64,000 nucleotides of DNA from Arachis hypogaea (Eukaryota; Streptophyta; Magnoliopsida; Fabales; Fabaceae), in contig NC_092045.1 of NCBI RefSeq assembly GCF_003086295.3, positions 27,446,022-27,510,021 on the forward strand, written 5' to 3'. The position numbers and the translations under genes were made by a program. The notes under the pieces were generated by a model that was not told where the DNA came from, searched no databases, and worked only from the letters and a program-made list of their open reading frames with translations. Positions 2,246-63,340 of this stretch are shown in pieces; position 1 is the first letter of the stretch, and the number at the start of each line of letters is the position of its first letter.

Positions 2246-3169
2246 GGAGTAGTTTTGAAGGAGATAGGGGACTTTTTTGGGACTTTTGGGAACTACTCTC
2301 TGCGTATTTTACTTTTCTGTACTTCTAGTATGGATTCTTCTTTTCTGCCAATTTTGATTCCTAGAGCTATGAACAACTAAACCTCTTTCATTGGGTTAGG
2401 GAGCTCTGCTGTAATTTGATGGATCAATATTAGTTTCATTCTTCTTCTTCTATCTTTTCTCTTGATTTTACTAGAAAGCTTTCAATCTTAATTCCATTGG
2501 TTAGTTGTCTTGGAAAAGAAACTCTCCATAATTGGATCTCTTCGGAACCTTGGAAGAGGAATGAAGAGATCATGCTAGAAATGCTTTCTCATGCTGGACC
2601 AATTTGGGTTTGGATGGATATGTGACTATAATCCTACCAATACTTGATTTGGGAAATGTATGTGGTATAATCAGTGACCATACTTCATCTCTTCTCATGA
2701 GCAATTGACCAAGGAATTGGCTATTGATCAAGATTTGAGAGATTGGATTACCAAGGAATTGGAATCCAATCACTTAAGATTGTCAAGGAGATCAATGAAT
2801 GCATTGATTGAGGAAGAGATGAGAATGAATTTGATCCGGAGAATTATAACATCTCCTAAACCCAATGATTTTCCCATTTCTGATCTTACCCATTCTCTTG
2901 AGTTTCTGCCATTTACTTTTATGAGCATTATCCCAATTCCCCATTTAAGATTCTGCACTTTAATTTCTGCTATTTAATTTCTAGTCATTTAAATTTCTGC
3001 ATCTCAATCTCAATTCTATTTAGCTCAACTAGCATATTCTTCTAACTAAAGTTGCTTGACCAATCAATCCTTGTGGGATTCGACCTCACTCTATAGTGAG
3101 TTTTACTTGACGATAATTCGGTATACTTACCGAAGGGAGATTTGTTGAGAGACAAGTTTCCATGCATCA

Positions 3170-3954: not shown

Positions 3955-4329
3955 GTAGTTGATGAGCGGATAATTTGTACGCTTTTTGGCATTGTTTTTA
4001 GTATGTTTTTAGTATGTTTTAGTTAGTTTTTATTATATTTTTATTAGTTTTTAGTTAAAATTCACTTTTCTGGACTTTACTATGAGTTTGTGTATTTTTC
4101 TGTGATTTCAGGTATTTTCTGGCTAAAATTGAGGGACCTGAGCAAAAATCTGATTCAGAGACTAAAAGGACTGCAGATGCTGTTGGATTCTGACCTCCCT
4201 GCACTCGAAGTGAATTTTCTGGAGCTACAGAAGCCCAGTTGGCGCGCTCTTAACGGCGTTGGAAAGTAGACATCCTGGGCTTTTCCGAAATGTATAATAG
4301 TCCATACTTTGCCCGAGATTTGATGGCCC

Positions 4330-4440
4330 AAACCGGCGTTCCAAATCAGCTCAAAACTGCCCGGCGTTAAACGCCGGAACTGGCACAAGAATGGGAGTTA
4401 AACGCCCAAACTGGCATGAAAGCTGGTGTTTAACTCCAAG
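4330..4440. repeat. GGCGTT-AACGCC palindrome array, LTR A
   Basis: Four copies of the core (exact or degenerate) are centred near 4340, 4371, 4400 and 4430, a pitch of about 30 bp. The clearest is CCGGCGTTAAACGCCGG. The same array recurs at 12910-13020 in the 3' LTR. Confidence 0.85.
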
Positions 4441-4556
4441 AGAAGTCTCTACATGAAAATGCTTCAATGCTCAGCCCAAGCACACACCAAGTGGGCCCGG
4501 AAGTGGATTTTTATGTCATTTACTCATCATTTGTAAACCCTAGACTACTAGTTCTC

Positions 4557-4564
4557 TATATATA
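4557..4564 (+). promoter_or_regulatory. TATA box of LTR A
   Basis: TATATATA followed by GGACC, about 600 bp into the LTR, with an identical copy near 13138 in the 3' LTR. It is the likely core promoter for the genomic transcript. Confidence 0.55.
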
Positions 4565-5579
4565 GGACCTTTCACTCTTGTATTCTCATCTTGGCTCTTC
4601 TGGTTCCCTCTCTGGGGCCGAGGCCAATGATCACTTTTGTTCTTATGTATTTTCAACGGTGGAGTTTCTACACACCATAGATTATGGTGTGGAGCTCTGC
4701 TGTACCTCGAGTATTAATGCAATTACTATTGTTCTTCTATTCAATTCGGCTTATTCTTGTTCTAAGATATTCATTTGCACCCAAGAACATGATGAATGTG
4801 ATGATTATGTGACGCTCATCATCATTCTCACTCATGAACGAGTGCCTGACAACCACTTCTGTTCTACAAGCAAACAAGGCTTGAATGTTTATCTCTTGGA
4901 TCCCTTAATCGGAATCTTCGTGGTATAAGCTAGAATTGATGGCGGCATTCAAGAGAATCCGGAAGGTCTAAACCTTGTCTATGGTATTCTGAGTAGGATT
5001 CAATGATTGAATGACTGTAACAAGCTTCAAACTCCTGAAGGCTGGGCGTTAGTGACAGACGCAAAAGAATCACTGGATTCTATTCCAACCTGATTGAGAA
5101 CCGACAGATGATTAGCCGTGCCGTGACAGGGTGCGTTGAACATTTTCACTGAGAGGATGGGAGGTAGCCACTGACAACGGTGAAATCCTACATACAGCTT
5201 GTCATGGAAAGGAGTAAGAAGGATTGGATGAAGACAGTAGGAAAGCAGAGAGACGGAAGGGACAAAGCATCTCCATACGCTTATCTGAAATTCTCACCAA
5301 TGAATTACATAAGTATCTCTATCTTTATCTTTATGTTTTATTCATACATTATCCATAACCATTTGAGTTTGCCTGACTAAGATTTAGAAGGTGACCATAG
5401 CTTGCTTCATACCAACAATCTCTGTGGGATCGACCCTTACTCGCGTAAGGTTTATTAGTTGGACGACCCAATACACTTGCTAGTTAGTTGTGCAAAGTTG
5501 TGATAAATAGTTGAGATTGCAATTGAGCGTACCATGTTGATGGCACCATTGATGATCACAATTTTATGCACCAAGTTTT

Positions 5580-5690
5580 TGGCGCTGTTGCCGGGGATTG
5601 TTCGAGTTTTCGGCAAGCTTTTGGTCCGGTAACATCAGTGCCAAATTTTTGATCCGGCAACAGCACCAAGTTTTTGGCGCCGTTGCCGGG
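5580..5690 (+). promoter_or_regulatory. Duplicated tRNA-Asp primer-binding site
   Basis: TGGCGCTGTTGCCGGGG (5580-5596) is complementary to the 3' end of plant tRNA-Asp (CCCCGGCAACGGCGCCA) with one mismatch, and would prime minus-strand synthesis. A second copy, TGGCGCCGTTGCCGGG, lies at 5675-5690. The duplicated block starts with the last LTR bases (GCACCAAG at 5568 and again at 5663), so the LTR/primer-site junction itself is tandemly repeated at about 95 bp. The downstream copy is the better match to the tRNA. Confidence 0.85.
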
Positions 5691-6475
5691 AATTGTTTGA
5701 GTTTGGACAACTGACGGTTCATCTTGTTGCTTAGATTGCGTATTTTTTTTAGAATTCTTAAGAATGAATTCTAGAGTTTCATGATGATCTGTTGAAGTCT
5801 GGCTGGCTGTGAAGCCATGTCTAATTTTATTGGACCAAGGTTTCAACTTATCATCACAAGAGCTTGTTGATTTCTATCAATCTTGCTACTGGAGCAATGA
5901 TCTGCTAAGGCTTGGCTGGCCATTGGCCATGTCTAGTGTTTTGGACCGGAGCTTTCTTTGAAAGCTTGGCTGGCTCTGAAGCCATGTCTAATTCCTGGAC
6001 CGGAGTCTTAGACTAGCATTGCAATGATTCCTGGAATTCTAATTAAGAATTTTGATATCTTTATTTTCTTTTCCACTTAATTTTCGAAAAATCCAAAAAA
6101 ATTTACAAAATCATAAAAACCAAAAATATTTTATATTTCTTGTTGAGTCTAGAGTCTCATTTTAAGTTTGGTGTCAATTGCATGTTTTTATTCTTCTTGC
6201 ATTCATTCATGTGTCTTAAGTGATCTTCAAGTTGTTCTTGATGATTTCCTTGTTCTGATCTTTAAATTCTCTTGTCTTGAGTGTTTTGTAGTGTCAGTAG
6301 TATACAAACTGCTAAGTTTGGTGTCTTACATGCATTGTTATTTGATTTTAGTTGCATTTTGATTATTCTTCATTATTAAAAATCCAAAAATATTTTTAAC
6401 TTGTGTCTTTTCAAGTCAATAATACAGAGAATTGAAGATTCAGAACATATTGCAGAGGAATCACACAGAAAAAGC

Positions 6476-6650
6476 TGGGCGTTCAAAACGCCCAGTGAGG
6501 AAGGCAAATTGGCGTTTAAATGCCAGCCAGGGTGTCTGGTTGGGCGTTTAACGCCCAAAAGGGTAGAGCTTTGGGCGTTTAACGCCCAAAAGGGTAGAGC
6601 TTTGGGCGTTAAACGCCAGAATGGATACCATTCTGGGCGTTTAACGCCAG
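6476..6650. repeat. 31-bp-pitch palindrome array in leader of A
   Basis: Six palindromic cores (GGGCGTTTAACGCCC, GGGCGTTAAACGCC and variants) are centred near 6487, 6518, 6549, 6580, 6611 and 6641. Spacers such as AAAAGGGTAGAGCTT are repeated between some copies. It lies between the primer site and gag. Open frames crossing it on both strands are incidental. Confidence 0.9.
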
Positions 6651-7270
6651 GATGGCACAAGAGGGAAGATTCTGTTTTCAATTCAATTTTTTTTTCAAGT
6701 TTTCAAAATTTTTCAAAATCAAATCTTTTTCAAAATCAATTTCTTTCCATTTTTCAAAAATACTTGCTATCAATTAATGATTTGATTCAACATTTCAAGT
6801 ATGTTGCCTTTTCTGTTGAGAAAGGTTTAATGTTTGAATCATATGTTTTTTTGTTAGGCAAGTCATTAATTTTTAAAATCAAATCCTTTTAAATTGTTTT
6901 TCAAATCATATATTCTCAATCACATCTTTTTCAAAATAGTTTTGAATCATATCTTTTTGATTTCTAATTTCAAAATCTTTTTTCAAAAATCACTTGATTT
7001 TTTTTTCACTCTTAGTTTTCGAAAATCAATTGAAGTTTTTCAAAATGTTTTAAAATCTTTTGCTTAATTTTCAAAAATTCTTCCCCTCTTCTCACATCCT
7101 TCAATTTATGGACTAACACCAGTCCTTAATGAACAATTCGAACTCCATCTTCCTTGATAAGTTCAAATTTTCTACCTCTTCCTTCTATTTTTCGTTTCCT
7201 CTGACACCTCAAGGAATCTCTATACTGTGACATAGAGGATTCCATATTTTCTTGTTCTCTTCTCTTTCAT

Positions 7271-9619
7271 ATGAGCAGGAGCAAAGACAAAAGCATTCTT
7301 GTTGAGGCTGACCCTGAACCTGAAAGGACCTTGAAGAGAAAGCTAAGAGAAGCTAAAGCACAACTCTCTGTAGAGGTCCTAACAGAAATCTTCAAACAAG
7401 AAGAAGACATGGCAGCCGAACACAACAATAATGCCAACAATGCAAGGAAGGTGCTTGGTGACTTTACTGCACCTACTCCCGACTTCTATGGGAGAAGCAT
7501 CTCTATCCCTGCCATTGGAGCAAACAACTTTGAGCTTAAGCCTCAATTAGTTTCTCTAATGCAATAGAATTGCAAGTTCCATGGACTTCCATTGGAAGAT
7601 CCTCATCAGTTTTTAGCTGAATTCTTGCAAATCTGTGACACTGTCAAGACCAATGGGGTTGACCCTGAGGTCTACAGACTTATGCTATTCCCTTTTGCTG
7701 TAAGAGACAGAGCTAGGATATGGTTGGACTCACAACCTAAAGAAAGCCTAAACTCTTGGGAAAAGCTAGTCAATGCCTTCTTGGCAAAGTTCTTTCCACC
7801 TCAAAAATTGAGTAAGCTTAGAGTGGAAGTCCAAACCTTCAGACAAAAGGAAGGTGAATCCCTCTATGAAGCTTGGGAAAGACACAAACAATTGATCAGA
7901 AAGTGTCCTTCTGACATGCTTTCTGAATGGAGCATCATAGGTATCTCCTATGATGGTCTGTCTGAACTGTCCAAGATGTCATTGGATAGTTCTGCTGGAG
8001 GCTCTCTTCATCTGAAGAAGACGCCTGTAGAAGCTCAAGAACTGATTGAAATGGTTGCAAATAACCAATTCATGTACACTTCTAAAAGGAATCCTGTGAA
8101 CAATGGGACGAATCAGAAGAAAGGAGTTCTTGAGATTGATACTCTGAATGCCATATTGGCTCAGGACAAAATATTGACTCAGCAAATCAATATAATTTCT
8201 CAAAGTCTGTCTGGAATGCAAGCTGCACCAGGAAGTACTAAGGACGCTTCATCTGAAGAAGAAGCTTATGATCCTGAGAACCCTTCAATGGAAGAGGTGA
8301 ATTACATGGGAGAACCCTATGGAAACACCTATAATCCTTCATGGAGAAATCATCCAAATCTTTCATGGAAGGATCAACAGAGACCTCAACAAGGTTTAAA
8401 CAACAATAATGGTGGAAGAAACAGGTTTAGCAATGGCAAGCCTTTTCCATCATATTCTCAACAACAGATAGAGAATTCTAAGCAGAGCAACTCTAACTTA
8501 GCAACCATGGTCTCTGATCTAATCAAAACCACTCAAAGTTTCATGACTGAAACAAGGTCCTCCATTAGAAACTTGGAGGCACAAGTGGGACAGCTGAGCA
8601 AAAAAATTACTGAACTCCCTCCTAGTACTCTTCCAAGCAATACAGAAGAGAATCCAAAAGGAGAATGCAAGGCCATTAACATGACCCACATGGCCGAACT
8701 TGGAGAGGAGGAAGAGGCAGAGATCGCCACTGAGGAAGACCTCAATGGACGTTCACTGGCCTCCAATGAGTTCCCTAATGAGAAACCATGGGAATCTAAG
8801 GCTCACACTGAGACCATAGAGATTCCATTGAATTTACTTCTGCCATTCATGAGCTCTGATGAGTATTCTTCCTCTGAAGAGGATGAAGATGTCACTGAAG
8901 AGCAAGTTGCTAAATACCTTGGAGCAATCATGAAGCTAAATGACAAGTTATTTAGTAATGAGACTTAGGAGGATGAACCCCCTTTGCTCACCAAAGAACT
9001 GGATGACTTGTCTAGGCAGAAACTACCCCAAAAGAGACAAGATCCTGTGAAGTTCTCAATACCTTGTGCCATAGGCACCATGACCTTCAAGAAGGCCTTG
9101 TGTGACCTAGGGTCAAGCATAAACCTCATGCCTCTCTCTGTAATGGAGAAGCTAGGGATCTTTGAGGTGCAAGCTGCAAGAATCTCACTAGAGATGGCAG
9201 ACAATTCAAGAAAACAAGCTTATGGGCTTGTAGAGGATGTTCTGGTAAAAGTTGAAGACCATTACATCCCTGCTGATTTCATAGTCCTAGAGACTGGGAA
9301 GTGCATGGATGAATCCATCATCCTTGGCAGACCCTTCCTAGCCACAGCAAAGGCTGTGATTGATGTAGACAGAGGAGAATTGATCATTCAAGTTTATGAA
9401 GAATCCCTTGTGTTTAAGGCTCAAGGATATCCCTCTGTCACCATGGAGAGGAAGCATGAAGAGCTTCTCTCGAAACAGAGTCAAATAGAGCCCCCACAGT
9501 CAAACTCTAAGTTTGGTGTTGGGAGGCCACAACCAACTTCTAAGTTTGGTGTTGAACCCCCACATTCAAACTCTAAGTTTGGTGTTGGGAGGTTCCAACA
9601 TTGCTCTGAGTATCTTTGA
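7271..9619 (+). pseudogene. gag-pro: gag-protease of element A (two in-frame amber stops)
   Basis: A single frame of 783 codons starts at ATG 7271 and is broken only by TAG at 7565-7567 and 8966-8968. The N-terminal part has ARKVLGDFTAPTPDFYG and the retrotransposon gag domain (RIWLDSQPKESLNSWEKLVN, SLYEAWERHKQLIRKCP, roughly residues 110-240). A Q/N/S-rich stretch and a RNLEAQVGQLSKKITELP segment follow, as in Athila-like gag; I see no CCHC knuckle. The protease has the catalytic DLGSSINLMP motif (near 9106) and the flap-side ILGRPFLATA motif (near 9331). The first stop probably replaces Gln (QQNC context expected). The second lies between gag and protease, so read-through cannot be excluded. 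No polymerase follows. The C-terminus carries three SKFGV repeats encoded by the AAGTTTGGTGTTG motif. Confidence 0.9.
9508..9590 (+). repeat. Triple AAGTTTGGTGTTG repeat inside protease C-terminus
   Basis: Three copies of (C)TAAGTTTGGTGTTG start near 9508, 9540 and 9573, about 32-33 bp apart. They encode SKFGV three times with Pro-rich linkers. The motif is the one that borders the 3' LTR at 12528-12540. Confidence 0.85.
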
Positions 9620-9668
9620 GGCTCCATGAGAGCCCACTATCAAGCTACTGACATTAAATAAGCGCTTG

Positions 9669-9684
9669 TTGGGAGGCAACCCAA
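9669..9684 (+). promoter_or_regulatory. TTGGG-AGGCAA-CCCAA hairpin after last ORF
   Basis: TTGGG (9669-9673) can pair with CCCAA (9680-9684) around AGGCAA, in the context AGCGCTTGTTGGGAGGCAACCC. Counterparts lie after pol in D (54932-54945) and after ORF1 in F (42225-42242, minus). Function unknown. Confidence 0.6.
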
Positions 9685-9827: not shown

Positions 9828-10000
9828 ACGTTTAAACGCCAGTAAGGGTAGCAAATGGGCGTTTAACGCCCAGTCTGGCACCATTCTGGGCGTTTAACGC
9901 CAGAAAGGGGCACCAGACTGGCGTTAAACGCCAGGAAAGGGCAAGAAGCTGGCGTTAAACGCCAGAAATGGGCACCAGCCCGGCGTTTAACGCCAGAATT
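9828..10000. repeat. 31-bp-pitch palindrome array between protease and ORF2 of A
   Basis: Six cores are centred near 9834, 9865, 9896, 9926, 9957 and 9987, alternating between GGCGTTTAACGCC and its reverse complement GGCGTTAAACGCC. Arms often extend to CTGGCGTT...AACGCCAG. Confidence 0.9.
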
Positions 10001-10301
10001 GGCATAAAGAGCATTTTTGCTCGCCACTTGGTGCAGGGATGACTTTTCCTTGACACCTCAGGATCTGTGGACCCCATAGGATCCCCACCTACCCCACCAC
10101 CCTCTCTCTTCTTCTTCACCCATTCACCAATCACCTCAACCACTCTTCCCCAAAAACCCCTCACCTATCAAATCCCATCTTTCTCTTCACCACTCACATC
10201 CATCCTTCATAAAACCCAACCTACCTCACCATTCAAATTCAAACCACTTTCCCTTCCAAACCCACCCTCCCATAACCGAACCCTACCCCTCTCTCCACCC
10301 C

Positions 10302-10309
10302 TATATAAA
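10302..10309 (+). promoter_or_regulatory. Internal TATA-like box upstream of ORF2 in A
   Basis: TATATAAA sits at the end of an unusually C-rich, G-poor stretch (about 10055-10425) resembling a plant Y-patch leader, about 200 bp before the ORF2 start codon. It could drive a separate ORF2 transcript. Based on sequence appearance only. Confidence 0.35.
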
Positions 10310-10426
10310 CCCATCTTCACTCCTTCATTTTCACATAACCTAAACTCTCCTTCTCCCCCTTTGGCCGAACCACAAAGCCATCTCCATCTCCTCCATTTCT
10401 TCTTCTTCTACTATCTTCTTTCTTCT

Positions 10427-10464
10427 TTTGCTCGAGGACGAGCAAATCTTTTAAGTTTGGTGTG
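10427..10464 (+). promoter_or_regulatory. Internal hairpin plus AAGTTTGGTGT tract upstream of ORF2
   Basis: TTTGCTCG (10427-10434) and CGAGCAAA (10439-10446) form a perfect 8-bp stem with loop AGGA. TTTAAGTTTGGTGTGG follows. This duplicates the hairpin/tract pair at the 3' LTR junction (12503-12540) and suggests a central plus-strand priming site or an RNA signal before ORF2. Confidence 0.6.
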
Positions 10465-10500
10465 GTAAAAGCATTGCTTTTTGTTTTTCCATAACCATTT

Positions 10501-11626
10501 ATGGCATCCAAGGCCAGAGAAACCTCTAGAAAGAGGAAAGGGAAGGCAAAAGCTTCCACCTTCGAGTCATGGGAGATGGAGAGATTCATCTCAAGAGTAC
10601 ATCAAGACCACTTCTATGAAGTTGTGGCCTTGAAGAAGGTGATCCCCAAGGTCCCTTTTAAACTCAAAAAGAGTGAATATCCGGAGATCCGACATGAGAT
10701 TCAAAGAAGAGGTTGGAAAGTTCTTACCAACCCCATTCAACAAGTCGGAATCTTAATGGTTCAAGAGTTCTATGCCAATGCATGGATCACCAAGAACCAT
10801 GATCAAAGTGTGAACCCGGACCCAAAGAATTGGCTTACAATGGTTCAGGGGAAATACTTGGATTTTAGTCCGGAAAATGTGAGGTTGGCATTCAACTTGC
10901 CCATGATGCAAGGAGATGAACACCCTTACACTAGAAGGGTCAACTTTGATCAAAGGTTGGACCAAGTCCTCACAGTCATTTGTGAAGAGGGCGCTCAATG
11001 GAAGAGAGATTCAAGAGGAAAGCCGGTTCAACTGAGAAGGCATGACCTCAAGCCCGTGGCTAGAGGATGGTTGGAGTTTATCCAACGCTCAATCATTCCG
11101 ACTAGCAACCGGTCCAAAGTTACTATAGACCGGACCATCATGATTCATAGCATCATGATTGGAGAAGAAATAGAAGTTCATGAGGTTATAGCCCAAGAAC
11201 GTTATAAGGTGGCGGACAAAGTCCTCTACCTTGGCAAGGTTAGCCTTTCCCCATTTCATTTGTCATCTCTGTTATTCAGTTGGAATTGACATAGAGGGAG
11301 ACATCCCCATTGATGAGGACAAGCCCATCACTAAGAAAAGGATGGAGCAAACAAGAGACCCCTCTCATCATGAAGTCCCTGAGATGCCTCAAGGGATGCA
11401 CTTTCCTCCACAAAACTATTGGGATCAAATCAATACCTCCCTAGGAGAATTGAGTTCCAACATTGGACAACTAAGGGTGGAGCACCAAGAACATTCCATC
11501 CTCCTCCATGAAATTAGAGAAGATCAAAGAATCATGAGAGAGGAGCAACAAAGGCAAGGAAGAGACATTGAGGAGCTCAAGCACTCCATAAGATCTTCAA
11601 GAGGAAGAACAAGCCGCCATCACTAA
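10501..11626 (+). pseudogene. ORF2 of element A (plant mobile-element protein), frameshifted
   Basis: ATG 10501 opens a frame with a Lys/Arg-rich N-terminus (about residues 1-20, nuclear-localisation-like). A conserved region follows with HFYEVVALKKVIPKVPF, GWKVLTNP, VQEFYANAW and FSPENVRLAFNLP. I associate this with the 'putative plant transposon protein' family found downstream of pol in Athila/Tat-like elements; its biochemical role is not known. Near 11236 the reading shifts to the next frame, where LAFPHFICHLCYSVGI continues the domain. A C-terminal coiled coil (about 11440-11600, heptads with Glu/Arg/Gln) and a basic tail ending at 11626 follow. Intact length would be about 375 residues. 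The D counterpart is only its first part (55786-56058). Confidence 0.8.
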
Positions 11627-12502
11627 GGTGGACCCGTTCTTCAATCTCCTTGTTCCTTATTTTCCTGTTTGTCGAAATTTTATGCTTATGTTTATCTATG
11701 TTTGTGTCTTATGATCATTAGTGTCTTAGTGTCTATGCCTTAAAGTTATGAATGTCCTATGAATCCATCACCTTTCTTGAATGAAAAATGTTCTTAATTG
11801 AAAAAGAGAAGAATTGCATGAATTTTAAATTTTATAACAGATTAATTATTTTGATGTGGTGGCAATACTTTTGTTTTCTGAATGTATGCTTAAACAGTGC
11901 ATATGTCTTTTGAATTTGTTGTTCATGAATGGTTGGCTCTTGAAAGAATGATGAAAAAGGAGACATGTTACTGAGGATCTGAAAAATCATAAAAATGATT
12001 CTTGAAGCAAGAAAAAGCAGTGAATACAAAAAAAAAAAGAGAAGAAGCGAAAAAAAAGGCAGAAAGAGAAAAAGAAAGAAAAAGAAAGAAATAAAAGTGT
12101 GATCCAAGGCAAAAAGAGTGTGCTTAAGAACCCTGGACACCTGTAATTGGGGACTCTAGCAAAGCTGAGTCACAATCTGAAAAGATTCACCCAATTATGT
12201 GTCTGTGGCATGTATGTATCCGGTGGTAATACTGGAAGACAGAGTGCTTTGGGCCACAGCCAAGACTCATAAAGTAGCTGTGTTCAAGAATCATCATACT
12301 TAACTAGGAGAATCAATAACACTATCTGGATTCTGAGTTCCTATAGAAGCCAATCATTCTGAATTTCAAAGGATAGAGTGAGATGCCAAAACTATTCAGA
12401 GGCAAAAAGCTAAAAGTCCCGCTCATCTAATTAATACTGATCTTCATAGATGTTTTTGGAATTCATTGCATATTCTCTTCTTTTTATCTTATTTGATTTT
12501 CA
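11627..12502 (+). other. 3' untranslated region of element A
   Basis: No supported gene. It contains a purine-rich AAAGAAAAAGAAAGAAA tract (about 12030-12100) and a block (about 12110-12440, including TGTGTCTGTGGCATGTATGTATCCGGTGG) shared with D (about 56690-56990). Confidence 0.7.
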
Positions 12503-12540
12503 GTTGCTTGGGGACAAGCAACAATTTAAGTTTGGTGTTG
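12503..12540 (+). promoter_or_regulatory. Hairpin plus primer-like tract at 3' LTR of A
   Basis: GTTGCTTG (12503-12510) pairs perfectly with CAAGCAAC (12515-12522) around GGGA. TTTAAGTTTGGTGTTG then directly abuts TGATGAGCGG of the 3' LTR. The position equals that of a polypurine tract; the composition is G/T-rich. Confidence 0.65.
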
Positions 12541-14155
12541 TGATGAGCGGATAATTTGTACGCTTTTGGGCATTGTTTTTAGTATGTTTTTAGTATGTTT
12601 TAGTTAGTTTTTATTATATTTTTATTAGTTTTTAGTTAAAATTCACTTTTCTGGACTTTACTATGAGTTTGTGTGTTTTTCTGTGATTTCAGGTATTTTC
12701 TGGCTGAAATTGAGGGACTTGAGCAAAAATCTGATTCAGAGACTAAAAGGACTGCAGATGCTGTTGGATTCTGACCTCCCTGCACTCGAAGTGGATTTTC
12801 TGGAGCTACAAAAGCCCAATTAGCGCGCACTCAACGGCATTGGAAATTAGACATCCTGCGCTTTCCAGCAATGTATAATAGTTCATACTTTGCCCGAGAT
12901 TTGATGGCCCAAACCGGCGTTCCAAATCAGCTCAAAACTGCCCGGCGTTGAACGCCGAAACTGGCACAAGAATGGGAGTTAAACGCCCAAACTGGCATGA
13001 AAGCTGGCGTTTAACTCCAAGAGAAGTCTCTACATGAAAATGCTTCAATGCTCAGCCCAAGCACACACCAAGTGAGCCCGGAAGTGGATTTTTATGTCAT
13101 TTACTCATCATTTGTAAATTCTAGACTACTAGTTCTCTATATATAGGACCTTTCACTCTTGTATTCTCATCTTGGCTCTTCTGGTTCCCTTTCTAGGGCC
13201 GAGGCCAATGATCACTTTTGTTCTTATGTATTTTCAACGGTGGAGTTTCTACACACCATAGATTAAGGTGTGGAGCTCTGCTGTACCTCGAGTATTAATG
13301 CAATTATTATTGTTCTTCTATTCAATTCGGCTTATTCTTGTTCTAAGATATTCATTTGCACCCAAGAACATGATGAATGTGATGATTATGTGACGCTCAT
13401 CATCATTCTCACTCATGAACGAGTGCCTGACAACCACTTCTGTTCTACAAGCAAACAAGGCTTGAATGTTTATCTCTTGGATCCCTTAATCGGAATCTTC
13501 GTGGTATAAGCTAGAATTGATGGTGGCATTCAAGAGAATCCGGAAGGTCTAAACCTTGTCTGTGGTATTCTGAGTAGGATTCAATGATTGAATGACTGTG
13601 ACGAGCTTCAAACTCCTGAAGGTTAGGCGTTAGTGATAGACGCAAAAGAATCACTGGATTCTATTCCAACCTGATTGAGAACCGACAGATGATTAGTCGT
13701 GCTGTGACAGGGTGCGTTAAACAGTTTCACTGAGAGGATGGGAGGTAGCCACTGACAACAGTGAAACCCTACATACAGCTTGCCATGGAAAGGAGTAAGA
13801 AGGATTGGATGAAGACAGCAAGGAAAGCAGAGAGACGGAAGGGACAAAGCATCTCCACACGCTTATCTGAAATTCTCACCAATGAATTACATAAGTATCT
13901 CTATCTTTATCTTTATGTTTTATTCATACATTATACATAACCATTTGAGTTTGCCTGACTAAGATTTACAAGGTGACCATAGCTTGTTTCATACCAACAA
14001 TCTCTGTGGGATCGACCCTTACTCGCATAAGGTTTATTACTTGGACGACCCAGTACACTTGCTGGTTAGTTGTGCGAAGTTGTGATAAATAGTTGAGATT
14101 GCAATTGAGCGTACCATGTTGATGGCGCCATTGATGATCACAATTTCGTGCACCA
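12541..14155 (+). repeat. 3' LTR of element A
   Basis: Direct repeat of 3960-5573, 1615 bp, followed by the GTAGT duplication at 14156-14160. Confidence 0.92.
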
Positions 14156-25808: not shown

Positions 25809-27996
25809 CTAAATTACCTCCTCACTTTGTCCCTCGTCCTCAGCCGAATTGAATGTATCCACTTGGGCTTTTTTTTCCCGACGAGGCCTTCCGTCTGTGC
25901 AAGTCCTCTTAGTATGCCCCGGCTTGTTGCAGTTGGCACACTGTCTCTTGGACGCCTTCCTCTGATGACCCCTTGGTGCTCCCTTTGTTCGCACAACAAC
26001 ATGATCTCGAATTTCACCACGTGCCTTAGAGTTCGTAGGATGGACACATTTGGCCAACTCTGATTCCAAGGTTGCACATAGTCGGCGAATCCCCTCCAAA
26101 GCAACAGCGAATAACCCAACCTGCTGGGCCCCTAAAAAGAACAACCATCGGGACGCCGAATGAAGTGCTCCATGGCGAAGCAAGAACCCTCTATCACCCT
26201 CGTCATCTGTTTTCTCGGCGTATGCGTCTAATAATTTTGCTTCTTTGGTCCAATGCTTCAACACTAGACTACTAGGTATTGTCAACAAGTGTTCATGCTT
26301 CATCACAAAAAATATATGTTCCTGAATTCTCCAAAAATTACAACCACATTCTAATTTACCGATGTTCTTATCACATAAAACTATAATGTGACAGCCTGGA
26401 TGACTGTACTCCTCAACTGTGTACACCTTCGTGGTCAACGACCTCCTCACCCCAACAAAATTAACTGAAGAACACTCTGAATCTCCTGTTTAGCATCTAC
26501 AAATACCTCTCTTGTGTAAACAGAAGCTGCATGACGCTCAAGGGTTTCCAGCGAGGTTGTCAGCACCGGTTCGCTATAAATAGACCTGAACTGTGCCTGA
26601 AATTCATTGTTCTTATACTCCCGCACAAGATGTTCTAGATTCTAAACAAGCTCCAACATACTATGTTTTGATTCAAGGAAATTCTTGCACACTGAATTTA
26701 TCCCTTCGCACCGTAATGTTTTCCGATACCCGGCACAGAATTTTTCACACAGGAAAGTGTTTGCCCACATCTCCTTTTTCCCATAAACTTGGTCCCACCA
26801 TAGTGCATCCTGCAAGCCATAATCGGCTGCGGCCTGAGCCCACTCTGCCTTAAAGTCCTCAACCCTCATTTCAAAATAAATCCATCGATTAAAAAGCCGA
26901 CGTAAATTGTCATCCTTCACGTTTGACGTGACATTCTTCTCAAAATGCCAAGCACATAACCTATGCGTGGCATTTGGAAAAATTGTTCGTACGGCTTCTC
27001 AAATTGAGTCATCACCATCTGTGACAACAACAAACGGCTGCTTGTTGCACATCACCTCCAAGAAATTCTCCAACAGCCACGTATATGATGCAATGCTCTC
27101 ATCTAACACCAAACCAAACCCAAAAATACATGTTTGCTTGTGGTTATTACATCTTGAGAAAATCACTAGCGGCCTCTTGTATTTGTTCTTTTTGTAAGTT
27201 GAGTCAAATGCAAGTACGTCTCCAAAGTATTGGTAATCTATCCTGTTGCCACTGTCGGCCCAAAGTAAATTCGCTAGGATCTCGTCGTCTATCACATTAT
27301 ACCTTACCATCGAAGTCGGGTCTGCATCGACTTTACCCTCCAAGTACACTATAGGTGCGTTCGCGTCTCCGTCAACTATCTTTGCATGACGCTTCTTATC
27401 CATGTAGTTGTAAGCATCTTTCTTCAAAAAACCTACAAATGAATACCCTTCAGATACTCCAGCCATGTACCGCATTGTCTTTGCCGTGGAGATGCCACAA
27501 CCTTGAAACCCATCTAATTGGGCTTTCGCAACATCCGTCACCGAACGAAAACGTGTAATTAGATGAACCATTCCAGGATGAGTCATGTCGTGGTTGTGGT
27601 TCAAAATAATTTTCTTGACCTCTACAATGAGCTTTCCTTATCTAAATATATACACATTCTTGCTTCACAATTCGTCATTGTCTCTGGCTTGTGAGACCTC
27701 TTCCTGTCGATCCTGTTATAATGTTTCTTATCTCTCTGTCCCTCTCTATTGCAAAAAAATCTTCTCCAAACCAAATTACCCTTCTCATCCTTGAACATAT
27801 CTCTTCTTCTAATACCAAACCTGTAGAATTTTCCTAATCTCTTATAAAACTCATATGCATCGCCTTCGCTACGAAACACCTTCCTCAAAATATCATTTTT
27901 CGTTATATCAGCTACATCTCCAAAATCGACAGCGCCCATCACACCTGTCCCCTTGTCACACATTGCATTAATGTCAACAGCCTGGGGAACGTCCAT
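25809..27996 (-). pseudogene. FAR1/MULE-type transposase of the MULE, broken
   Basis: Minus strand, probable start ATG at 27996. Domains in order: FAR1-type DNA-binding domain (FRSEGDAYEFYKRLGKFYRFG to CEARMCIYL, about 27870-27640); a hinge with NHNHDMTHPG (about 27595); the MULE catalytic domain with FGDVLAFDSTYKKNKYKRPL (near 27210) and VVVTDGDDSI (near 27015); CAWHFEKN (near 26950); a degraded SWIM-like segment with ECGCNFWRIQEHIF (near 26320); and a zinc knuckle CANCNKPGHTKRTC (near 25910). FAR1/FHY3 transcription factors derive from such transposases. Damage: frameshift near 27630, TGA near 27000 (Arg expected), TAG near 26643 (Gln expected), frameshift near 26465. It converges with the protease gene, as mudrA and mudrB do in MuDR. 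The enzyme would cut at the TIRs. Confidence 0.88.
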
Positions 27997-39362: not shown

Positions 39363-40827
39363 AAGCTCAAGAGAAGCTATAAAGGGGTGAAGAGGGATGG
39401 TAGAATGTATGCAATGCAACCTATCTATATGAATGCAACTACATGCAAGAATGTTTCTACTACTTGGTTAAAAGTAAATAAGTTCTCCAAGACAAAAATA
39501 ATTTAAATTCCACTAATTCAAATCATATAAAATAAAGACAAGTAAACTTGTAAGAAGATAGCTCATGAAAGCAGGGAACATAGAATCAAGCATTGAACCC
39601 TCACTGGAAGTGTATATCACTCTAATCTCTCAAGTGTATAGGGTTATTCACTCTACTCTTCTCTAGTCATGCTTTCTAAACCTTGTTCTTCATCTAACCA
39701 ATCAACAAATATTTAATGTACCAATGCAAACATCATGAGGTCTTTTCAAGGTTGTAATGGGGCTGAGGTAAAGGTAAGGATATATGTATGGCCAAGTGAG
39801 CTTTATAAATTGAATCTTTAATTATCCTAAGCTTTCACCTAACATACATATACTCTATATAACTCTAGTTCATGCCTAGCTACCCAAAATTCCCACTTTT
39901 ACATCACATACTCATGTATCAACTTTTTCTTTTTAATTTATCACATGTGCATTGATTTTTCATTAACTTAACATTGGGGTAATTTTGTCCCCTTATTTAT
40001 TTATTTATATTATATTATATTATATTATATTATATATATATATATATTGTTTTTCTTTTTCTCTTTTTTTTTGAATCATAAAAGCAAACATAACTTATCA
40101 ATGCACATGGATTCTCCATTATTTTTCTATTTTGGTTTTTCATGAGTAGGTTCCTAAATTCCTTATATTCAAATAGATTAGAGACATGATGCTTTTCCTT
40201 ATTAACCCATGTTCCCATAGTTTTCCCCACACTTAGTTGATGCACAATCTCTATCTTAAGCTAACCAAAGATTCAATTGGGATATTACTTTTGTTTTTCT
40301 GCTTAAGGCTAGTGATGTGATAAAATACAGAACAAATGGGGATTAAAAGGCTCAAAGTGGTTGACAATGGTGATTTAAAGGGTAGGTTTATTTGGGATAA
40401 GTGAGCTAAAATCAAACAATGGCCTCAATCATATGCAAGCATGTAAATACACTAAATAATGGACATATAGATTGGAACAAAATATAGATTACAATCATAG
40501 AGGAAGAAACACACAAGAATAAAATATTTATGGTTAAATAATGTAACCATGTAAATAAGCTCAAAATCTCATAGGTTGTGTGTTCTTTGGCTCAAAAACC
40601 ATGTTCCAATTACAACTTCAAACAAATTTACACAAAAATTTAAATTAGTGAAATTTTTCAAAAATAGGATCTTAAAAAGAAACTTATTATTTTAACCAAG
40701 CAGTGGCTAAAATGCATAAAATCAAACAAACATGCAATTAAACATGCAAATGCAATAATGAACAAACAAAGAAAATAAAACAATGGTGTTGAGACAAGAA
40801 AGTACTAACCCATGGAGATCGGTATCG
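39363..40827 (-). other. 3' non-coding part of element F
   Basis: No gene supported. It contains a TATAT-rich microsatellite at about 40004-40046. Confidence 0.6.
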
Positions 40828-40865: not shown

Positions 40866-41539
40866 TGCTAAGATATACAAGTGGATGGGCTGCTCCAACT
40901 GATGCCTTTCTCCAAAGATTGTGCAGGTAGACTTGTTTGTCTTCCCATTAGGAAGCTTTTCCTCTCCCTTTGTGGTGGCCATCCTGAAAGAAGAAGGAAA
41001 ATAAGAAAAGTAACCCAAAAATAAAGATAGAAAATAAAAAAAATATGGGTGTTAATGCCAGATAATAAGGGTCTCAATTACATGGTAGCTACAACATGCA
41101 AGTGAGAAAACAGTAGAAGTACATGGCAAAGCAAGAGTGCAAAAATTTGAGACAATGGGAAAGAGAGTGCAAGATAATATAAATTCATGTCAATGCAAAA
41201 TTAATACAAATATCATAAAAGATTAGCATTGACTTAAACAATATTACCCAACAGTGTAAAACAAGTCGTTGAGTACCAAAATAATACCAGAAAAGATGCA
41301 ACAGTTAAATAAGAACAAGTAACACCAATAGAAAAATAATAAATTTAGAAAAGAAAATAAAAATATGCACAAAATTAAAATGCAATGGAAGAAAGCATGC
41401 AAATAAATTAAATAAAATAGAATGGAGGTGAAAAAGATGAGAAGTCAAAGAAAATAAGAAAGGAAGGAGAAAGAAATAAGAAAAGATAAGAAAAATAAGG
41501 ATTTGGAGAAGAAAAGATAAGATATTTGGCAAATTAGGA

Positions 41540-47212: not shown

Positions 47213-48754
47213 AGATGAGCGGATATTTTATACGCTTTTTGGGGGTAATTTCATATAGTTTTTAATATGTTTTAGTTAGTTTTTAGTATATTTCTATTAG
47301 TTTTTAAGAAAAATTCATATTTCTAGACTTTACTACGAGTTTGTGTATTTTTCTGTGATTTCAGGTATTTTCTGGCTGAAATTGAAAGCTGAGCAAAAAT
47401 CTAATTTAGGCTGAAAAAGGACGGCTGATGTTGTTGGATTCTGACCTCTCTGCATTAGAAATCGATTTTTTGGAGCTACAGAACTCCAATTGGTGCGCTC
47501 TCAATTGGGTTGGAAACTAGACATCCAGGGCTTTCAAGAAATATATAATAGTTCATACTTTGCACGAAGATAAATGACATAAACTGGCGTTTAACGCCAG
47601 TTTCATGTTGCATTCTGGCATTCAGGGCCAGAAACAGGTTGCAAGTTGGAGTTAAACGCCAGAAACAGGTTACAACCTGGCGTTTAACTCCAGAAACAGC
47701 CTAAGCACGTGAGAAGCTCAAGTCTCAGCCCCAGCACACACCAAGTGGGCCCCAGAAGTGGATTTCTACACCATCTATCTTAGTTTACTCATTTTTTGTA
47801 AACCTAGGTTACCAGTTTAGTATTTAAACAACTTTTAGAGACTTATTTTATATCTGATGACATTTTTTAGATCTGAAATTTGTACTTTTGATGACATGAG
47901 TCTCTAAACTCCATTGTTGGGGTTGAGGAGCTCTGCAGCATCTCGATGAATTAATGCAATTGGTTCTGTTTTCTATTCAAACACGCTTGTTCCTATCTAA
48001 GATGTTCATTCACGCTTCAATATGAAGAAGGTGATGATCCGTGACACTCATCATCATTCTCAACCCATGAACGTGTGCCTGACAACCACCTCCGTTCTAC
48101 ATTAGACTGAATGAGTATCTCTTAGATTCCTTAATCAGAATCTTCGTGGTATAAGCTAGAATCCATTGGCAGCACCCTTGAGAATCCGGAAGGTCTAAAC
48201 CTTGTTTGTGGTATTCTGAGTAGGATTCAAGGATTGGATGACTGTGATGAGCTTCAAACTCGCGAGTGTTAGGTGTAGTGACAGACGCAAAAGGATCAAT
48301 GGATCCTATTCCGACATGATCAAAAACCGACAGATGATTAGCCATGCAGTGACAGAGCATTTGGACCATTTTTACTAAGAGGATGGGAAGTAGCCATTGA
48401 CAATGGTGACGCCCTACATACAGCTTGCCATGGAAGGAGCCTTGCATGTTTGAAAGTGAGAAAGCATTATGTTACAGGGATTTAGAAGACAAAGCATCTC
48501 CAAAAGTCCAGCATATTCTCCATTACTGCATAATAAGTATTACTTAATCCATGTTCTCTTGTTCATTTGCAAATCAATTGATAACTATAATTGGTATCCT
48601 GACTAAGAATAATAAGATAACCATAGCTTGCTTCAAGCCAACAATCTCTGTGGGATTCGACCCTTACTCACGCAAGGTATTACTTGGACGACTCAGTGCA
48701 CTTGCTGGTTAGTTGTGCGGATTGCAAAAGTGTGATTGCAATTTTTGTGCATCA
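47213..48754 (+). repeat. 5' LTR of element D
   Basis: Direct repeat of 57107-58649. It contains a four-core palindrome array (centres near 47591, 47621, 47652, 47683, pitch 31 bp) and TATTTAAA at 47821-47828 as a probable TATA element. It ends GTGCATCA. Confidence 0.92.
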
Positions 48755-48776: not shown

Positions 48777-49838
48777 GATTGTTTGAGTTTGAACAACTGA
48801 CGGTGATTCTTGTTACTTAGATTAGGAAAAATTGTATTTTTAGTTTAGAGTCACTAGGATTGCATCTTCTATTATTCTTTTTAAAAAATTTTCAAAAATA
48901 TTATTTTTCTTTATTTGAATTTTTGTTTTTTTTATGAGTTTAGTGTCATGTTCTAAGTTTGGTTTCAATTGCATGCTTTTCTTTGTCTCTCAATTTTCGA
49001 ATTGCATGTTCTTTATTTTTTCTTGATCTTCAAATTGTTCTTGTCAATTTTTCTTGTTTGATCTTTGGTTTTTCCTGTTCTGTTTGTTTTCATGTTTTCC
49101 TTGTGCTTTTTCAAAATATCAGTTTTCAAAAATATTAATGTTTATACAATATTAAAATAAGTTAAATTTATAGCTCAATTGGCTAGAGCATTGGCTTATG
49201 TTCTTGGCAATTGGGTATCTTCTTTTTAAAAACTTTTTCAAAAATAATTTTTCTTTGATTAAATCTTGTGCCAAACTTTAAGTTGGGTTTTTCTTATTAA
49301 TCTTTCTTTAATTTTTGAAAATTTTATTGTGGTTTTCTTAAAATTTTAAGTTTGGTGTTCTTTCTTTTGTTCTTGTTGTTCTTGTGAGTCTTCAAAGTGT
49401 TCTTGAGTCTCCTTTGTGCTTTGATCTTAAAATTTTTAAGTTTGGTGTTCCTTGGTGTTTTTCCTCCAAAATTTTCGAAAACAAGGAGCATTAGATCTAA
49501 AAATTTTTAGTCTTGTGTCTTTTGTATGTTTTTCTCTTTCATCATAAAATTCAAAAATCAAAAAAATTATCCTTTCTAACTATTTTTAAGCAATTATTTC
49601 GAATTTTTTTAAGAAAAATCAGATCTTTCTCAAAAAATATCTTAACCACTTTCTCTCTCCTCACTTTTTCGAAAATCTTCATAAAATATTTTTAAATTTT
49701 TTATTTTTTATTTTTTTATTTTTTATTTTTCATTTTTTATTTTGGTTTTTATTTTATTCTATTTTATTATTTCGAAAATAATTTTTTTAATATAATAAAA
49801 TAAATAAAATAAATCCACATCATCTCCCTTTCTGCACC
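48777..49838 (+). other. T-rich leader of D with three AAGTTTGG motifs and a tRNA-half-like stretch
   Basis: Rich in TTTTCAAA and TTTTTTATTTTT tracts, like the leader of A. AAGTTTGG(T) motifs occur near 48955, 49348 and 49438. Around 49170-49200 TATAGCTCAATTGGCTAGAG continues into CATTGGCTTATG, matching the D-arm/A-box half of a tRNA. No T-arm follows. Confidence 0.55.
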
Positions 49839-54888: not shown

Positions 54889-54931
54889 AGCTCAGTAATA
54901 GTCCAGCTAAAGATAATAAAGAAGCGCTTGC

Positions 54932-54945
54932 TGGGAGGCAACCCA
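54932..54945 (+). promoter_or_regulatory. TGGG-AGGCAA-CCCA hairpin after pol of D
   Basis: In the context AAGCGCTTGCTGGGAGGCAACC, 44 bases after the pol stop. Same loop as the A hairpin at 9669. Confidence 0.6.
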
Positions 54946-55089
54946 ATCATGAGTTTATTTTATTTGTAATTTTAATTTTAAAAATTAGATAATACATTTC
55001 AGTGAATGATACAGAGTTACAGAAGGCTTCAGAGGATAAAACAGCAAAAAGGAGCTCCCTGGTGCGAAAAAGCCAATAAGAGCTATTTC

Positions 55090-55360
55090 GGGCGTTGAAC
55101 GCCCAAAAGAAGCATCTACTGGGCGTTCAACGCCAATAGAGATAGCCATCTGGGCGTTAAACACCAGAAAGAAGCATCTTCTGGGTGTTTAACGCCAGAT
55201 TTACAGCGTCCTGGGCGTTCATAAAAATGTCCAATAATAAAGGAGTTCCTGGCGTTTAACGCCAGCTAGATGCTACAGCTGGCCGTTAAACGCCTAGGAG
55301 AAGCTACAGATGGGCGTTAAACGCCCAAAACATGTAGCGTTTGGGCGTTTAACGCCAGGA
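55090..55360. repeat. Palindrome array between pol and ORF2 of D
   Basis: About nine cores (GGCGTTNAACGCC type, some degenerate) centred near 55098, 55128, 55159, 55190, 55219, 55258, 55288, 55318 and 55349, mostly 30-31 bp apart. It stands in the same place as 9828-10000 in A. Confidence 0.88.
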
Positions 55361-57106: not shown

Positions 57107-58649
57107 TGATGAGCGGATATTTTATACGCTTTTTGGGGGTAATTTCATATAATTTTTAGTATGTTTTAGTTAGTTTTTAGTATATTTCTATTAGTTTTTA
57201 GGCAAAATTCATATTTCTGGACTTTACTATGAGTTTGTGTGTTTTTCTGTGATTTCAGGTATTTTCTGGCTGAAATTGAGGGAGCTGAGCAAAAATCTGA
57301 TTTAGGCTGAAAAAGGACTGCTAATGCTGATGGATTCTGACCTCCCTACACTCGGAATGGTTTTTTGGAGCTACAGAAGTCCAACTGGCGCGCTCTCATA
57401 TGGGTTGGAAAGTAGACATCCAGGGCTTTCCAGCAATATATAATAGTTCATACTTTGCGCGAAGATAAACGACGTAAACTGGCGTTTAACGCCAGTTCCA
57501 TGTTGCATTCTGGCGTTCAACGCCAGAAACAGGTTGCAAGTTGGAGTTAAACGCCAGAAGCAGGTTACAACCTGGCGTTTAACTCCAGAAATAGCCCAGA
57601 CACGTGAGAAGCTCAAGTCTCAGCCCCAGCACACACCAAGTGGGTCCCAGAAGTAGATTTCTGCACCATCTATCTTAGTTTACTCATTTTCTGTAAACCT
57701 AGGTTACCAATTTAGTATTTAAACAATTTTTAGAGACTTATTTTATATCTGATGACATTTTTTAGATCTGAACTTTGTACTTTTGACGGAATGAGTCTCT
57801 AAACTCCATTGTTGGGGGTGAGGAGCTCTGCAGCGTCTCGATGAATTAATGCAATTGTTTCTGTTTTCTATTCAAACACGCTTGTTTCTATCTAAGATGT
57901 TCATTCATGCTTCAATATGAAGAATGTGATGATCCGTGACACTCATCATCATTCTCAACCCATGAACGTGTGCCTAACAACCACCTCCGTTCTACATTAG
58001 AATGAATGGGTATCTCTTAGATTCCTTAATTAGAATCTTCGTAGTATAAGCTAGAATCCATTGGCAGCACCCTTGGGAATCTAGAAGGTCTAAACTTTGT
58101 CTGTGGTATTCTGAGTAGGATCCAAGGATTGGATGACTGTGACGAGCTTCAAACTCGCGAGTGTTGGGCGTAATGACAGACGCAAAAGGATCAATGGATC
58201 CTATTCCGACATGATTGAAAACCGACAGATGATTAGCCGTGCTGTGACAGAGCATTTGGACCATTTTTACTAAGAGGATGGGAAGTAGCCATTGACAATG
58301 GTGACGCCCTACATACAGCTTGCCATGGAAGGAGCCTTGCATGTTTGAAAGTGAGAAAGCATTATGTTACAGGGATTTAGAAGACAAAGCATCTCCAAAA
58401 GTCCAGCATATTCTCCATTACTGCATAATAAGTATTACTTAATCCATGTTCTCTTGTTCATTTGCAAATCAATTGATAACTATAATTGGTATCCTGACTA
58501 AGAATAATAAGATAACCATAGCTTGCTTCAAGCCAACAATCTCCGTGGGATTCGACCCTTACTCACGTAAGGTATTACTTGGACGACCCAGTGCACTTGC
58601 TGGTTAGTTGTGCGGATTGCAAAAGTGTGATTGCAATTTTCATGCACCA
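57107..58649 (+). repeat. 3' LTR of element D
   Basis: Starts TGATGAGCGGATATTTTATACG and ends CATGCACCA, followed by ATGAC at 58650-58654. Palindrome array at 57478-57595. Confidence 0.92.
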
Positions 58650-62256: not shown

Positions 62257-62787
62257 GAAAGGTAAAAGATCTCATCACAAGATGCACTCTTTTTCCTGAA
62301 CAGGTTTTTTAATGAGGCATCAAGACTGAGATTTAATCCGACTTAAGGGTACGAAAAACTCCCACATGTATATATTTGCACTTTCTTTGAATCAAATACA
62401 TTTCAGATATTCTACAAATTCCCAAGACGCATTAACCTGAAGCATTCATCGTTTGATTATAAAGCAATAGATCGACAGAAAGTGAAGAACAGATTCACTG
62501 TACGATCTCGATAGGAATGATCGTCCGACAAAGGTGAAAACGCGATTCACCTAAAGGACGATCAACCAGGACAGAAACCACCATCTACAAATCGGCAAAG
62601 ATGAACACAGAATAATGCAAGAAGTTATCGAAAGTGATCCCAAAAAGAACTTGACGAGGTCTTATGGATTGCTACATAATAACTTAAAAAGACTGGCCGA
62701 CACTAAAAAATCAGACCAAGTCAACCCAAGTTATCAGCAAATCCCTGGAAAGAGGTCTGGCCAACCCTATTAAAGAGGAATTGCTAT
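62257..62787 (+). other. 3' region of H after pol
   Basis: No plus-strand gene. Leads into the tandem repeat. Confidence 0.5.
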
Positions 62788-63340
62788 AACTTAGAAGAGA
62801 TCGACCTAACGAAGTCGGTCTCCTACAAGACAAGTTATAAAAGTAATCCCTGAAAGAGACCTGACAAAGGTCCAAGAAAGAGGATTACAAAAATAACTTA
62901 GAAGAGATCGACCTAACGAAGTCGGTCTCCTACAAGACAAGTTATAAAAGTAATCCCTGAAAGAGACCTGACAAAGGTCCAAGAAAGAGGATTACAAAAA
63001 TAACTTAGAAGAGATCGACCTAACGAAGTCGGTCTCCTACAAAGACAAGTTATAAAAGTAATCCCTGAAAGAGACCTAACAAAGGTCCAAGAAAGAGGAT
63101 TACAAAAATAACTTAGAAGAGATCGACCTAACGAAGTCAGTCTCCTACAAGACAAGTTATAAAAGTAATCCCTGAAAGAGACCTAACAAAGGTCCAAGAA
63201 AGAGGATTACAAAAATAACTTAGAAGAGATCGACCTAACAAAGTCGGTCTCCTACAATACAAGTTATAAAAGTAATCCCTGAAAGAGACCTGACAAAAGT
63301 CCAAGAAAGAGGATTACAAAAATAACTTAGAAGGGGACTA
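62788..63340. repeat. 107-bp tandem repeat, five units and a partial
   Basis: Units start with AACTTAGAAGAGATCGACC near 62788, 62895, 63002, 63110, 63217 and 63324 (one unit is 108 bp). They include AAGTCGGTCTCCTAC and AAAGAGACCTGACAAAGGTC. Copies are nearly identical. A minus-strand frame through it (62913-63155) is a by-product of the repeat. Confidence 0.95.

Follow-up and report, generated by a model that had tools for sequence, protein, structure and literature searches.

How a reverse transcriptase (RT) picks its plus-strand origins when elements share no common polypurine tract (PPT) sequence is an old question, and it is raised again by a stretch of 64,000 nucleotides from the peanut genome (Arachis hypogaea, NC_092045.1, positions 27,446,022 to 27,510,021 of the forward strand; hereafter the window). 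The window holds three retrotransposons bounded by long terminal repeats (LTRs), here called A, F and C, together with the 3' end of another, X. An initial annotation had noticed that some of these carry a short hairpin and a primer-like tract beside the 3' LTR and again internally. That observation is real and larger than first described: families differ in stem sequence and yet preserve its pairing, a pattern suggesting that the hairpin helps to decide where second-strand synthesis starts. We read hairpin and tract as a plus-strand priming module of Athila/Calypso-like Ty3/gypsy elements, present twice per element, a reading that we judge about evenly poised between right and wrong. With its conserved loop, free stem, narrow spacing, half-purine tract and repetition inside the element, the module allows a direct test of the question in plant elements that are very abundant.

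Seven sites in the window follow one plan, in which an 8-nt stem arm, a loop (AGGA, GGGA or AAGA) and the second 8-nt arm are followed after 1 to 3 nt by a 13-nt tract. A, F and C each have an internal copy and a copy at the 3' LTR, and X has the LTR copy. All five hairpins of the initial annotation lie where it had placed them, and two modules, the internal one of C and that of X at 928–961, come in addition. Its spacing of about ten bases between hairpin and tract gives way to the measured 1–3 nt; the tracts at 55734 and 57091 are each one base off TTTAAGTTTGGTG; and its terminal copy in C is present, although not as the only one, since an internal copy with mismatches lies at 40866–40832 (minus strand). 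The sites, with their scores under a covariance model (R1), are:

10427..10462, plus strand: internal module of A; hairpin 10427–10446, TTTGCTCG-AGGA-CGAGCAAA; tract TTTAAGTTTGGTG at 10450–10462; 49.5 bits
12503..12540, plus strand: terminal module of A; hairpin 12503–12522, GTTGCTTG-GGGA-CAAGCAAC; tract 12525–12537, then TTG and the 3' LTR at 12541; 51.6 bits
55712..55746, plus strand: internal module of F; TTTGCTTG-AAGA-CAAGCAAA; tract TCTAAGTTTGGTG; 48.6 bits
57069..57106, plus strand: terminal module of F; GTTGCTT-TAGGAT-AAGCAAC; tract CTTAAGTTTGGTG, then TTG and the 3' LTR at 57107; 48.1 bits
40832..40866, minus strand: internal module of C, inside a small open reading frame (ORF); ATGCAACG-AGGA-CGGTGCAA, 6 of 8 pairs; tract TTTAAGTGTGGGG; 43.4 bits
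39326..39364, minus strand: terminal module of C; hairpin 39364–39345, TAGTATG-AGGA-CATGCTA; tract TTTAAGTGTGGGG at 39342–39330, then AGGT and the 3' LTR at 39325; 45.2 bits
928..964, plus strand: terminal module of X; CTTGCTTA-GGGA-CGAGCAAG; tract 949–961, then TTG and the LTR (TGATGCC) at 965; 43.9 bits
10387..10426, plus strand: pyrimidine-rich stretch (93%) directly 5' of the internal hairpin of A

The terminal module thus adjoins the 3' LTR in all four elements, with TTG or AGGT between tract and LTR. The 40 nt 5' of the hairpin, a stretch that we count as part of the module, are 78–85% pyrimidine at five further window sites and 55% at the internal module of C, whose relatives read ATGCACCG. 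The tract itself is strongly over-represented: the window has 13 copies of AAGTTTGGTG where 0.28 would be expected, one of them (35236) outside the described elements, and 15 matches to the pattern TAAGTKTGGKG where 0.16 would be. Among exact window matches its flavour tracks family, TTTGGTG in A, F and X and TGTGGGG in C. Over 16 nt the tract is 69% purine in C and 44–50% in A, F and X, so that in the latter it makes a poor polypurine tract and is not classed here as a classical one.

The stems of the seven window hairpins covary. Pairs are formed in 91.1% of the cells, double changes affect six of the eight pairs, and a hand count puts the minimum number of double changes at eight. The covariation score of 0.589 is reached by none of 500 shuffles of the stems, which give 0.230, and sliding the partners yields 0.125 or less. 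The proposal in the initial annotation that compensating stem changes point to a selected hairpin is thereby borne out in the window. Its own refuting condition, a covariance model that gains nothing over a sequence-only one, does not hold: there is a gain for C, none for A and F and a slight loss for X. When each family was left out in turn and the hairpin scored alone, pair-aware scoring lowered false positives from 4,933 to 28 for the internal and from 31 to 8 for the terminal copy of C (16 to 1 and 1 to 1 with the tract added), gave zero for A and F as sequence-only scoring did, and was slightly worse for X (0 to 2). Pair-aware scoring is thus the better of the two where sequence diverges, as in element C. 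R1 places the seven modules at the top of the window (at least 43.4 bits, next match 22.7), as does a sequence-only model, R2 (at least 22.8 against 12.6), a ranking that is no independent test because the same seven sites built both models.

Beyond the window, we searched the 2.557-Gb peanut assembly by pattern, counts of repeats being lower bounds. Exact TTTAAGTTTGGTG occurs at least 147,933 times (7,573 for the reversed pattern), GGAC followed by a short gap and the TTTAAGTTTGGTG tract at least 71,073 times (25 reversed), and GAGGAC with a gap and the C-type tract at least 30,792 times (0 reversed), so that one peanut genome holds more than 100,000 matches to the two loop-plus-tract patterns. 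Among 100 listed of the 30,792 C-type places we count 15 cases of internal–terminal neighbours 1.39–1.54 kb apart on the same strand. From these 100 we fetched 40 sites, chosen so as to include rare 3' arms rather than randomly; only loop, 3' arm and tract were known beforehand, and the loop-closing G-C pair was fixed by the pattern. The unseen 5' arm pairs at seven or more of the eight positions in 33 of the 40 and at six or more in 39.

Pooling these with other loci gave 85 hairpins, 43 of them distinct, with pair 8 partly fixed by the filter; 86.9% of cells are paired against 58.1% in shuffles (maximum 64.0), and the covariation score is 0.709 against 0.21 (maximum 0.292), neither value being reached in 1,000 shuffles. 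Six slid versions of the set all score 0.121 or less. The 43 distinct hairpins include seven 7-bp cores in which every pair is Watson-Crick (TTGCTTG, TTGCTCG, TAGCATG, AAGCATG, AGCATCG, AGCACGG and TGCACCG), whereas the loop with its closing pair (G-AGGA-C) is near-invariant, both being partly fixed by the selection of sites. These numbers bear on the possibility that shared descent and gene conversion alone produced similar hairpins, with no selection on pairing. The copies are related, and two of five measures in the pooled set, the number of double-change pairs (889 of 1,000) and the number of further pair types (667 of 1,000), are no higher than in shuffles; the pooled pairing and score argue against it, as do the slid versions, with controls that model relatedness incompletely. 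We consider this explanation highly improbable.

The hairpin is tied to the terminal and internal positions in the loci sampled. We surveyed 99 tract sites from 29 sources (286 kb), filing each as terminal, internal or other. Seven or more of the eight pairs form at 18 of the 22 terminal sites, 18 of the 20 internal ones and none of the 57 others. The internal class was defined by downstream strings already seen beside hairpins, so that its count is not independent. Some copies were misfiled, and the counts include them as filed: L025 (internal) and L029 and L032 (both gag tail) as terminal, and L016 (a decayed internal copy) as other. Starting from the hairpin, 46 of 103 with a stem of at least six and an RRGA loop are followed by the tract in the same 286 kb. 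In 20 larger loci picked around listed tract sites, R1 gave 39 matches, 36 of which form 18 internal–terminal pairs, 1.0–2.2 kb apart, in 16 loci; of the three unpaired matches one lies where its locus ends and the partners of the other two have decayed, and L023 and L036 gave no R1 match. The internal copy reported by the initial annotation is therefore also seen in related families. Tract copies that lack the hairpin are found in the window at:

6161–6173 and 6311–6323, plus strand: leader of A
48952–48964 (with changes), 49345–49357 and 49435–49447, plus strand: leader of F
40225..40237, minus strand: C-type tract ACTAAGTGTGGGG between the internal and terminal modules of C
9506..9584, plus strand: three in-frame copies (SKFGV), 33 nt apart, at the end of the protease-like ORF of A

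In the last of these the 15-nt tract is identical in all three repeats, whereas the linkers, 18 nt long, agree at 7 to 15 positions; the motif KFG[VAI] occurs at least once in 63, and at least three times in 34, of the 120 relatives listed among 2,693 hits.

At the terminal copy the spacing to the LTR is narrow. Of 34 sites that have an LTR-like start, 32 show a spacer of 3 or 4 nt between the tract and that start. With gap and spacer left free, the LTR begins 17–19 nt from the base of the hairpin in 30 of the 33 that also have a hairpin (the 34th has none): 17 nt once, 18 nt 13 times and 19 nt 16 times, the outliers being 20, 23 and 24. An earlier count, in which the search pattern fixed the spacer, gave 29 of 29. 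Among the outliers, a base is missing from the loop of L035, and L043 is probably an internal copy beside which an LTR-like string occurs by chance. For locating 3' LTR junctions and the limits of linkers in Athila-like elements, the module is in this respect a more precise guide than a run of purines.

The terminal tract is presumptively the plus-strand primer site, because its position at the 3' LTR demands one. In HIV-1 the polymerase-dependent RNase H activity of RT cuts 18 bp behind the polymerase site, and RT pausing has been hypothesised to allow the cut between PPT and U3 (available text of PMC3185654); Bousios et al., on Sireviruses and citing work on Ty1, argue that processing by RNase H may depend on a structure close to the PPT (available text of PMC2829016). 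On the strength of these reports and the 17–19 nt spacing, we propose that the hairpin halts RT with its RNase H at the tract/LTR junction. Minus-strand synthesis would copy the LTR and the tract and then stall at the base of the hairpin; the RNase H site, which trails the polymerase site by about 18 nt, would then sit at the tract/LTR junction, and a cut there would set the 3' end of the primer. If the hairpin halts RT in this way, the half-purine (44–50%) tract of A, F and X could serve as a primer. The conserved loop may also contact RT or nucleocapsid. A fuller version, in which a loop-specific hairpin acts as a ruler for RT, with the RNase H cut 17–19 nt behind it replacing polypurine composition and the plus strand having two origins, we offer as tentative and on the doubtful side.

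Several observations weigh against a priming role. RNA folding in context disfavours some of the hairpins: the probability is at most 0.02 for the terminal hairpin of F, drops from 0.55 to 0.02 for the internal one of C, and takes the values 0.89, 0.15, 0.09 and 0.64 at four flank lengths for that of X, unfavourable in two. The hairpin–LTR spacing is mostly shared by descent and does not amount to 30 independent facts; the 18-bp RNase H distance is that of HIV-1 RT and may not hold for the RT of this lineage; and the tract of A, F and X is not purine-rich. The bare tract copies in leader and gag tail are unexplained by priming. Finally, a mere roadblock would have no need of a near-invariant loop, which hints at protein binding.

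The constancy of the loop is what makes a protein-binding site a serious rival to the priming module, namely that hairpin and tract bind Gag/nucleocapsid or a host protein for packaging, export or dimer formation, with adjacency to the LTR secondary. A near-invariant loop on a varying stem is common for protein sites, even though here it is partly fixed by the selection of sites, and bare GGTG tracts also occur in the leader and the gag tail, where packaging signals are expected. The loop may also resemble the GGAG/GGUG loops of HIV-1. Packaging, however, predicts neither the 17–19 nt distance between hairpin and LTR in 30 of 33 copies nor the absence of the hairpin from all 57 other tracts, those of leader and gag tail included, and we regard this explanation as unlikely. 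Among its variants, a kissing loop for dimer formation is rejected because AGGA is not self-complementary.

What the internal copy does is a separate matter. A copy of the terminal primer tract lies inside A, F and C in the window, and for it the initial annotation had offered a central plus-strand primer or a signal for ORF2 expression. The second of these can be set out as a part of the ORF2 leader, in the form of a splice acceptor, an internal promoter or a translation signal. The internal copy of A lies 38 nt 5' of the ORF2 ATG; the pyrimidine stretch and AG before it resemble a 3' splice site; a TATA-like CCTATATAAACCC within 10290–10320, about 120 nt upstream of the hairpin and followed by a CT-rich stretch, is a possible ORF2 promoter; and Bagy2 has a spliced env-like message (available text of PMC7264820). 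The same kind of module nevertheless stands at the 3' LTR, where no ORF follows. Moreover, no long ORF was found in the C and X-type intervals between internal and terminal modules that were examined: in five of them, three X-type and two C-like, the longest ATG-initiated ORF is 31 (L017, plus strand), 30 (L017, minus strand), 43 (L025), 68 (L027) and 62 (window C) amino acids, and the internal stem is still paired in L017 on both strands, L025 and L027, and at 6 of 8 positions in window C. ORF decay in single copies is possible. Because the module is kept in intervals that have no ATG-ORF above 68 amino acids, ORF2 expression is weakened as a general role, and we consider it quite unlikely.

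Alternatively, the internal copy could be a relic of an old duplication or recombination of the 3' end, with no present role. Internal copies of the C type do run on into LTR-like letters (AGGTCGATA against AGGTTGATA), and the one in window C has stem mismatches. A relic would lose pairing, whereas the internal stems, seen with six or more downstream sequences, are unlike one another and for the most part still pair (TGCACCG, AGCATCG and AGCACGG cores), which disfavours this explanation. The mismatches of window C point the same way at stem position 6, which is A there and C in all nine fetched copies with the same downstream start, pairing in seven of the nine. This module lies inside an ORF of 86 amino acids, of which four relatives keep LAC-E-GAIFK-GEVDTD, and in each of them Thr stands at the place of the Asn of the window copy; the Thr suggested an ACC codon, with a C-G pair replacing the A-G mismatch of the window, as was then seen in fetched DNA. 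A relic is in our estimation quite improbable. Our best reading is that the internal copy is probably a second plus-strand start, like those of lentiviruses and Ty1, lying 1–2 kb 5' of the terminal module; the central plus-strand primer of the initial annotation is a plausible reading.

An additional primer tract is no new idea for this lineage, because Athila4 and Calypso are already described as having one additional PPT in the linker between pol and LTR (Wright and Voytas 2002, as cited in the available text of PMC2829016). These elements resemble those of peanut in the extra ORF after pol, the tRNA-Asp-type primer binding site a few nucleotides past the LTR and the PPT-like tract upstream of the terminal one; they differ in that the hairpin, its covariation, the 17–19 nt spacing and its duplication with the tract are absent from the portions of their descriptions compared here. 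Sireviruses (Ty1/copia) are alike in having several tract copies per element, tract variants common to all copies of an element and a paired structure near the terminal PPT, but in the available text of PMC2829016 the arms of their repeat lie on either side of the PPT and extend into the LTR, and their upstream PPTs have no repeat, whereas the peanut hairpin lies wholly 5' of the tract and the internal tract has its own. In the open-access literature searched, which did not extend to Wright and Voytas 2002, we found neither the covarying hairpin nor its duplication or spacing described, and paper-search matches to printed copies of the motif were judged unrelated. The second plus-strand PPTs of other systems, the lentiviral central PPT and PPT2 of Ty1, are bare tracts; the peanut module differs in combining hairpin and tract and in having, in A, F and X, a tract that is half purine. 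The likeness to those two would lie in a second plus-strand start inside the element (available text of PMC2829016).

The elements were delimited by self-comparison and junction reading. The LTRs of A are 96.5% identical; those of F lie at about 47213–48745 and 57107–58640 (94.8%) and those of C, on the minus strand, at about 45465–44035 and 39325–37904 (93.2%), and X is the 3' end of another element at 928–964. Features of A that place it are:

3960..5573, plus strand: 5' LTR, TGATGAGC...GCACCA, with the target-site duplication GTAGT just before
12541..14155, plus strand: 3' LTR, with GTAGT directly after
5580..5600, plus strand: primer binding site TGGCGCTGTTGCCGGGGATTG, 6 nt past the LTR
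10501..11289, plus strand: ORF2, the plant extra ORF, starting 38 nt past the internal tract; PF20167 (Transposase_32), 105.3 bits

The primer binding site string TGGCGCYGTTGCCGGG occurs in A and C, with a degenerate form in F, and that of A is probably of the tRNA-Asp type. A and F may be elements named FIDEL or Feral. By Pfam, ORFs of F match Retrotrans_gag, RVT_1, RT_RNaseH, Integrase_H2C2 and rve, and those of A match Retrotrans_gag, a sub-threshold aspartyl protease and, in ORF2, PF20167; no RT or integrase match was obtained among the ORFs of A tested, and none of any kind for the single ORF of C tested. Relatives of ORF2 occur in Arachis and Stylosanthes (among 120 listed of 227), and that of A is 86% identical to a protein of Arachis stenosperma and 88% to another protein, which fits peanut or a close relative as the source. 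Calypso and Diaspora have a tRNA-Asp primer 5 bp past the LTR (available text of PMC1142308), and on primer binding site, extra ORF and this literature we infer that A and F belong to the Athila/Calypso lineage of Ty3/gypsy.

Searches outside peanut gave little. In viral contigs, module pattern scans returned 0 stretches and protein scans no confirmed relatives. Six matches of one pattern in viral and bacterial collections (L001–L006) were judged chance, the three shown as alignments each having at least two non-standard pairs, as was L007 from a genome contig scan; L008 from the same scan, a plant-like sequence in a leaf-symbiont assembly, has no module by model. Rfam gave no match at gathering score, and the translated module motifs that were tried are absent from all 120 ORF2 relatives listed. 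The internal hairpin of A was flagged as terminator-like, a reading rejected since the tract does not consist of a run of T and the terminal copy is followed by an LTR, and a sigma-70 scan was set aside as inapplicable to plants.

Some further features of the window stand apart from these questions. The string GCGCTTNYTGGGAGGCAACCCA is common to A and F, at 9662–9684 and 54924–54946, soon after the end of gag-pro or pol; it includes a short inverted repeat (TGGG..CCCA), is kept in apparently non-coding DNA and recurs at 3113–3134 of L008, in plant-like sequence within a contig filed under the leaf symbiont Candidatus Burkholderia humilis. Palindromic repeats of the GGGCGTTTAACGCC type are numerous at 6500–6660, 9840–10000 and 55060–55360, within linker sequence of A and F and leader sequence of A. 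In C, a long pyrimidine run with CAG at 40983–41020 (minus strand), just 5' of the small ORF that holds the internal module, resembles a 3' splice site. A MULE transposase domain (PF10551) lies at 26999–27604 (minus strand), and a tandem repeat at 62786–63333 has a period of about 107–108 bp, with copies 97–98% identical.

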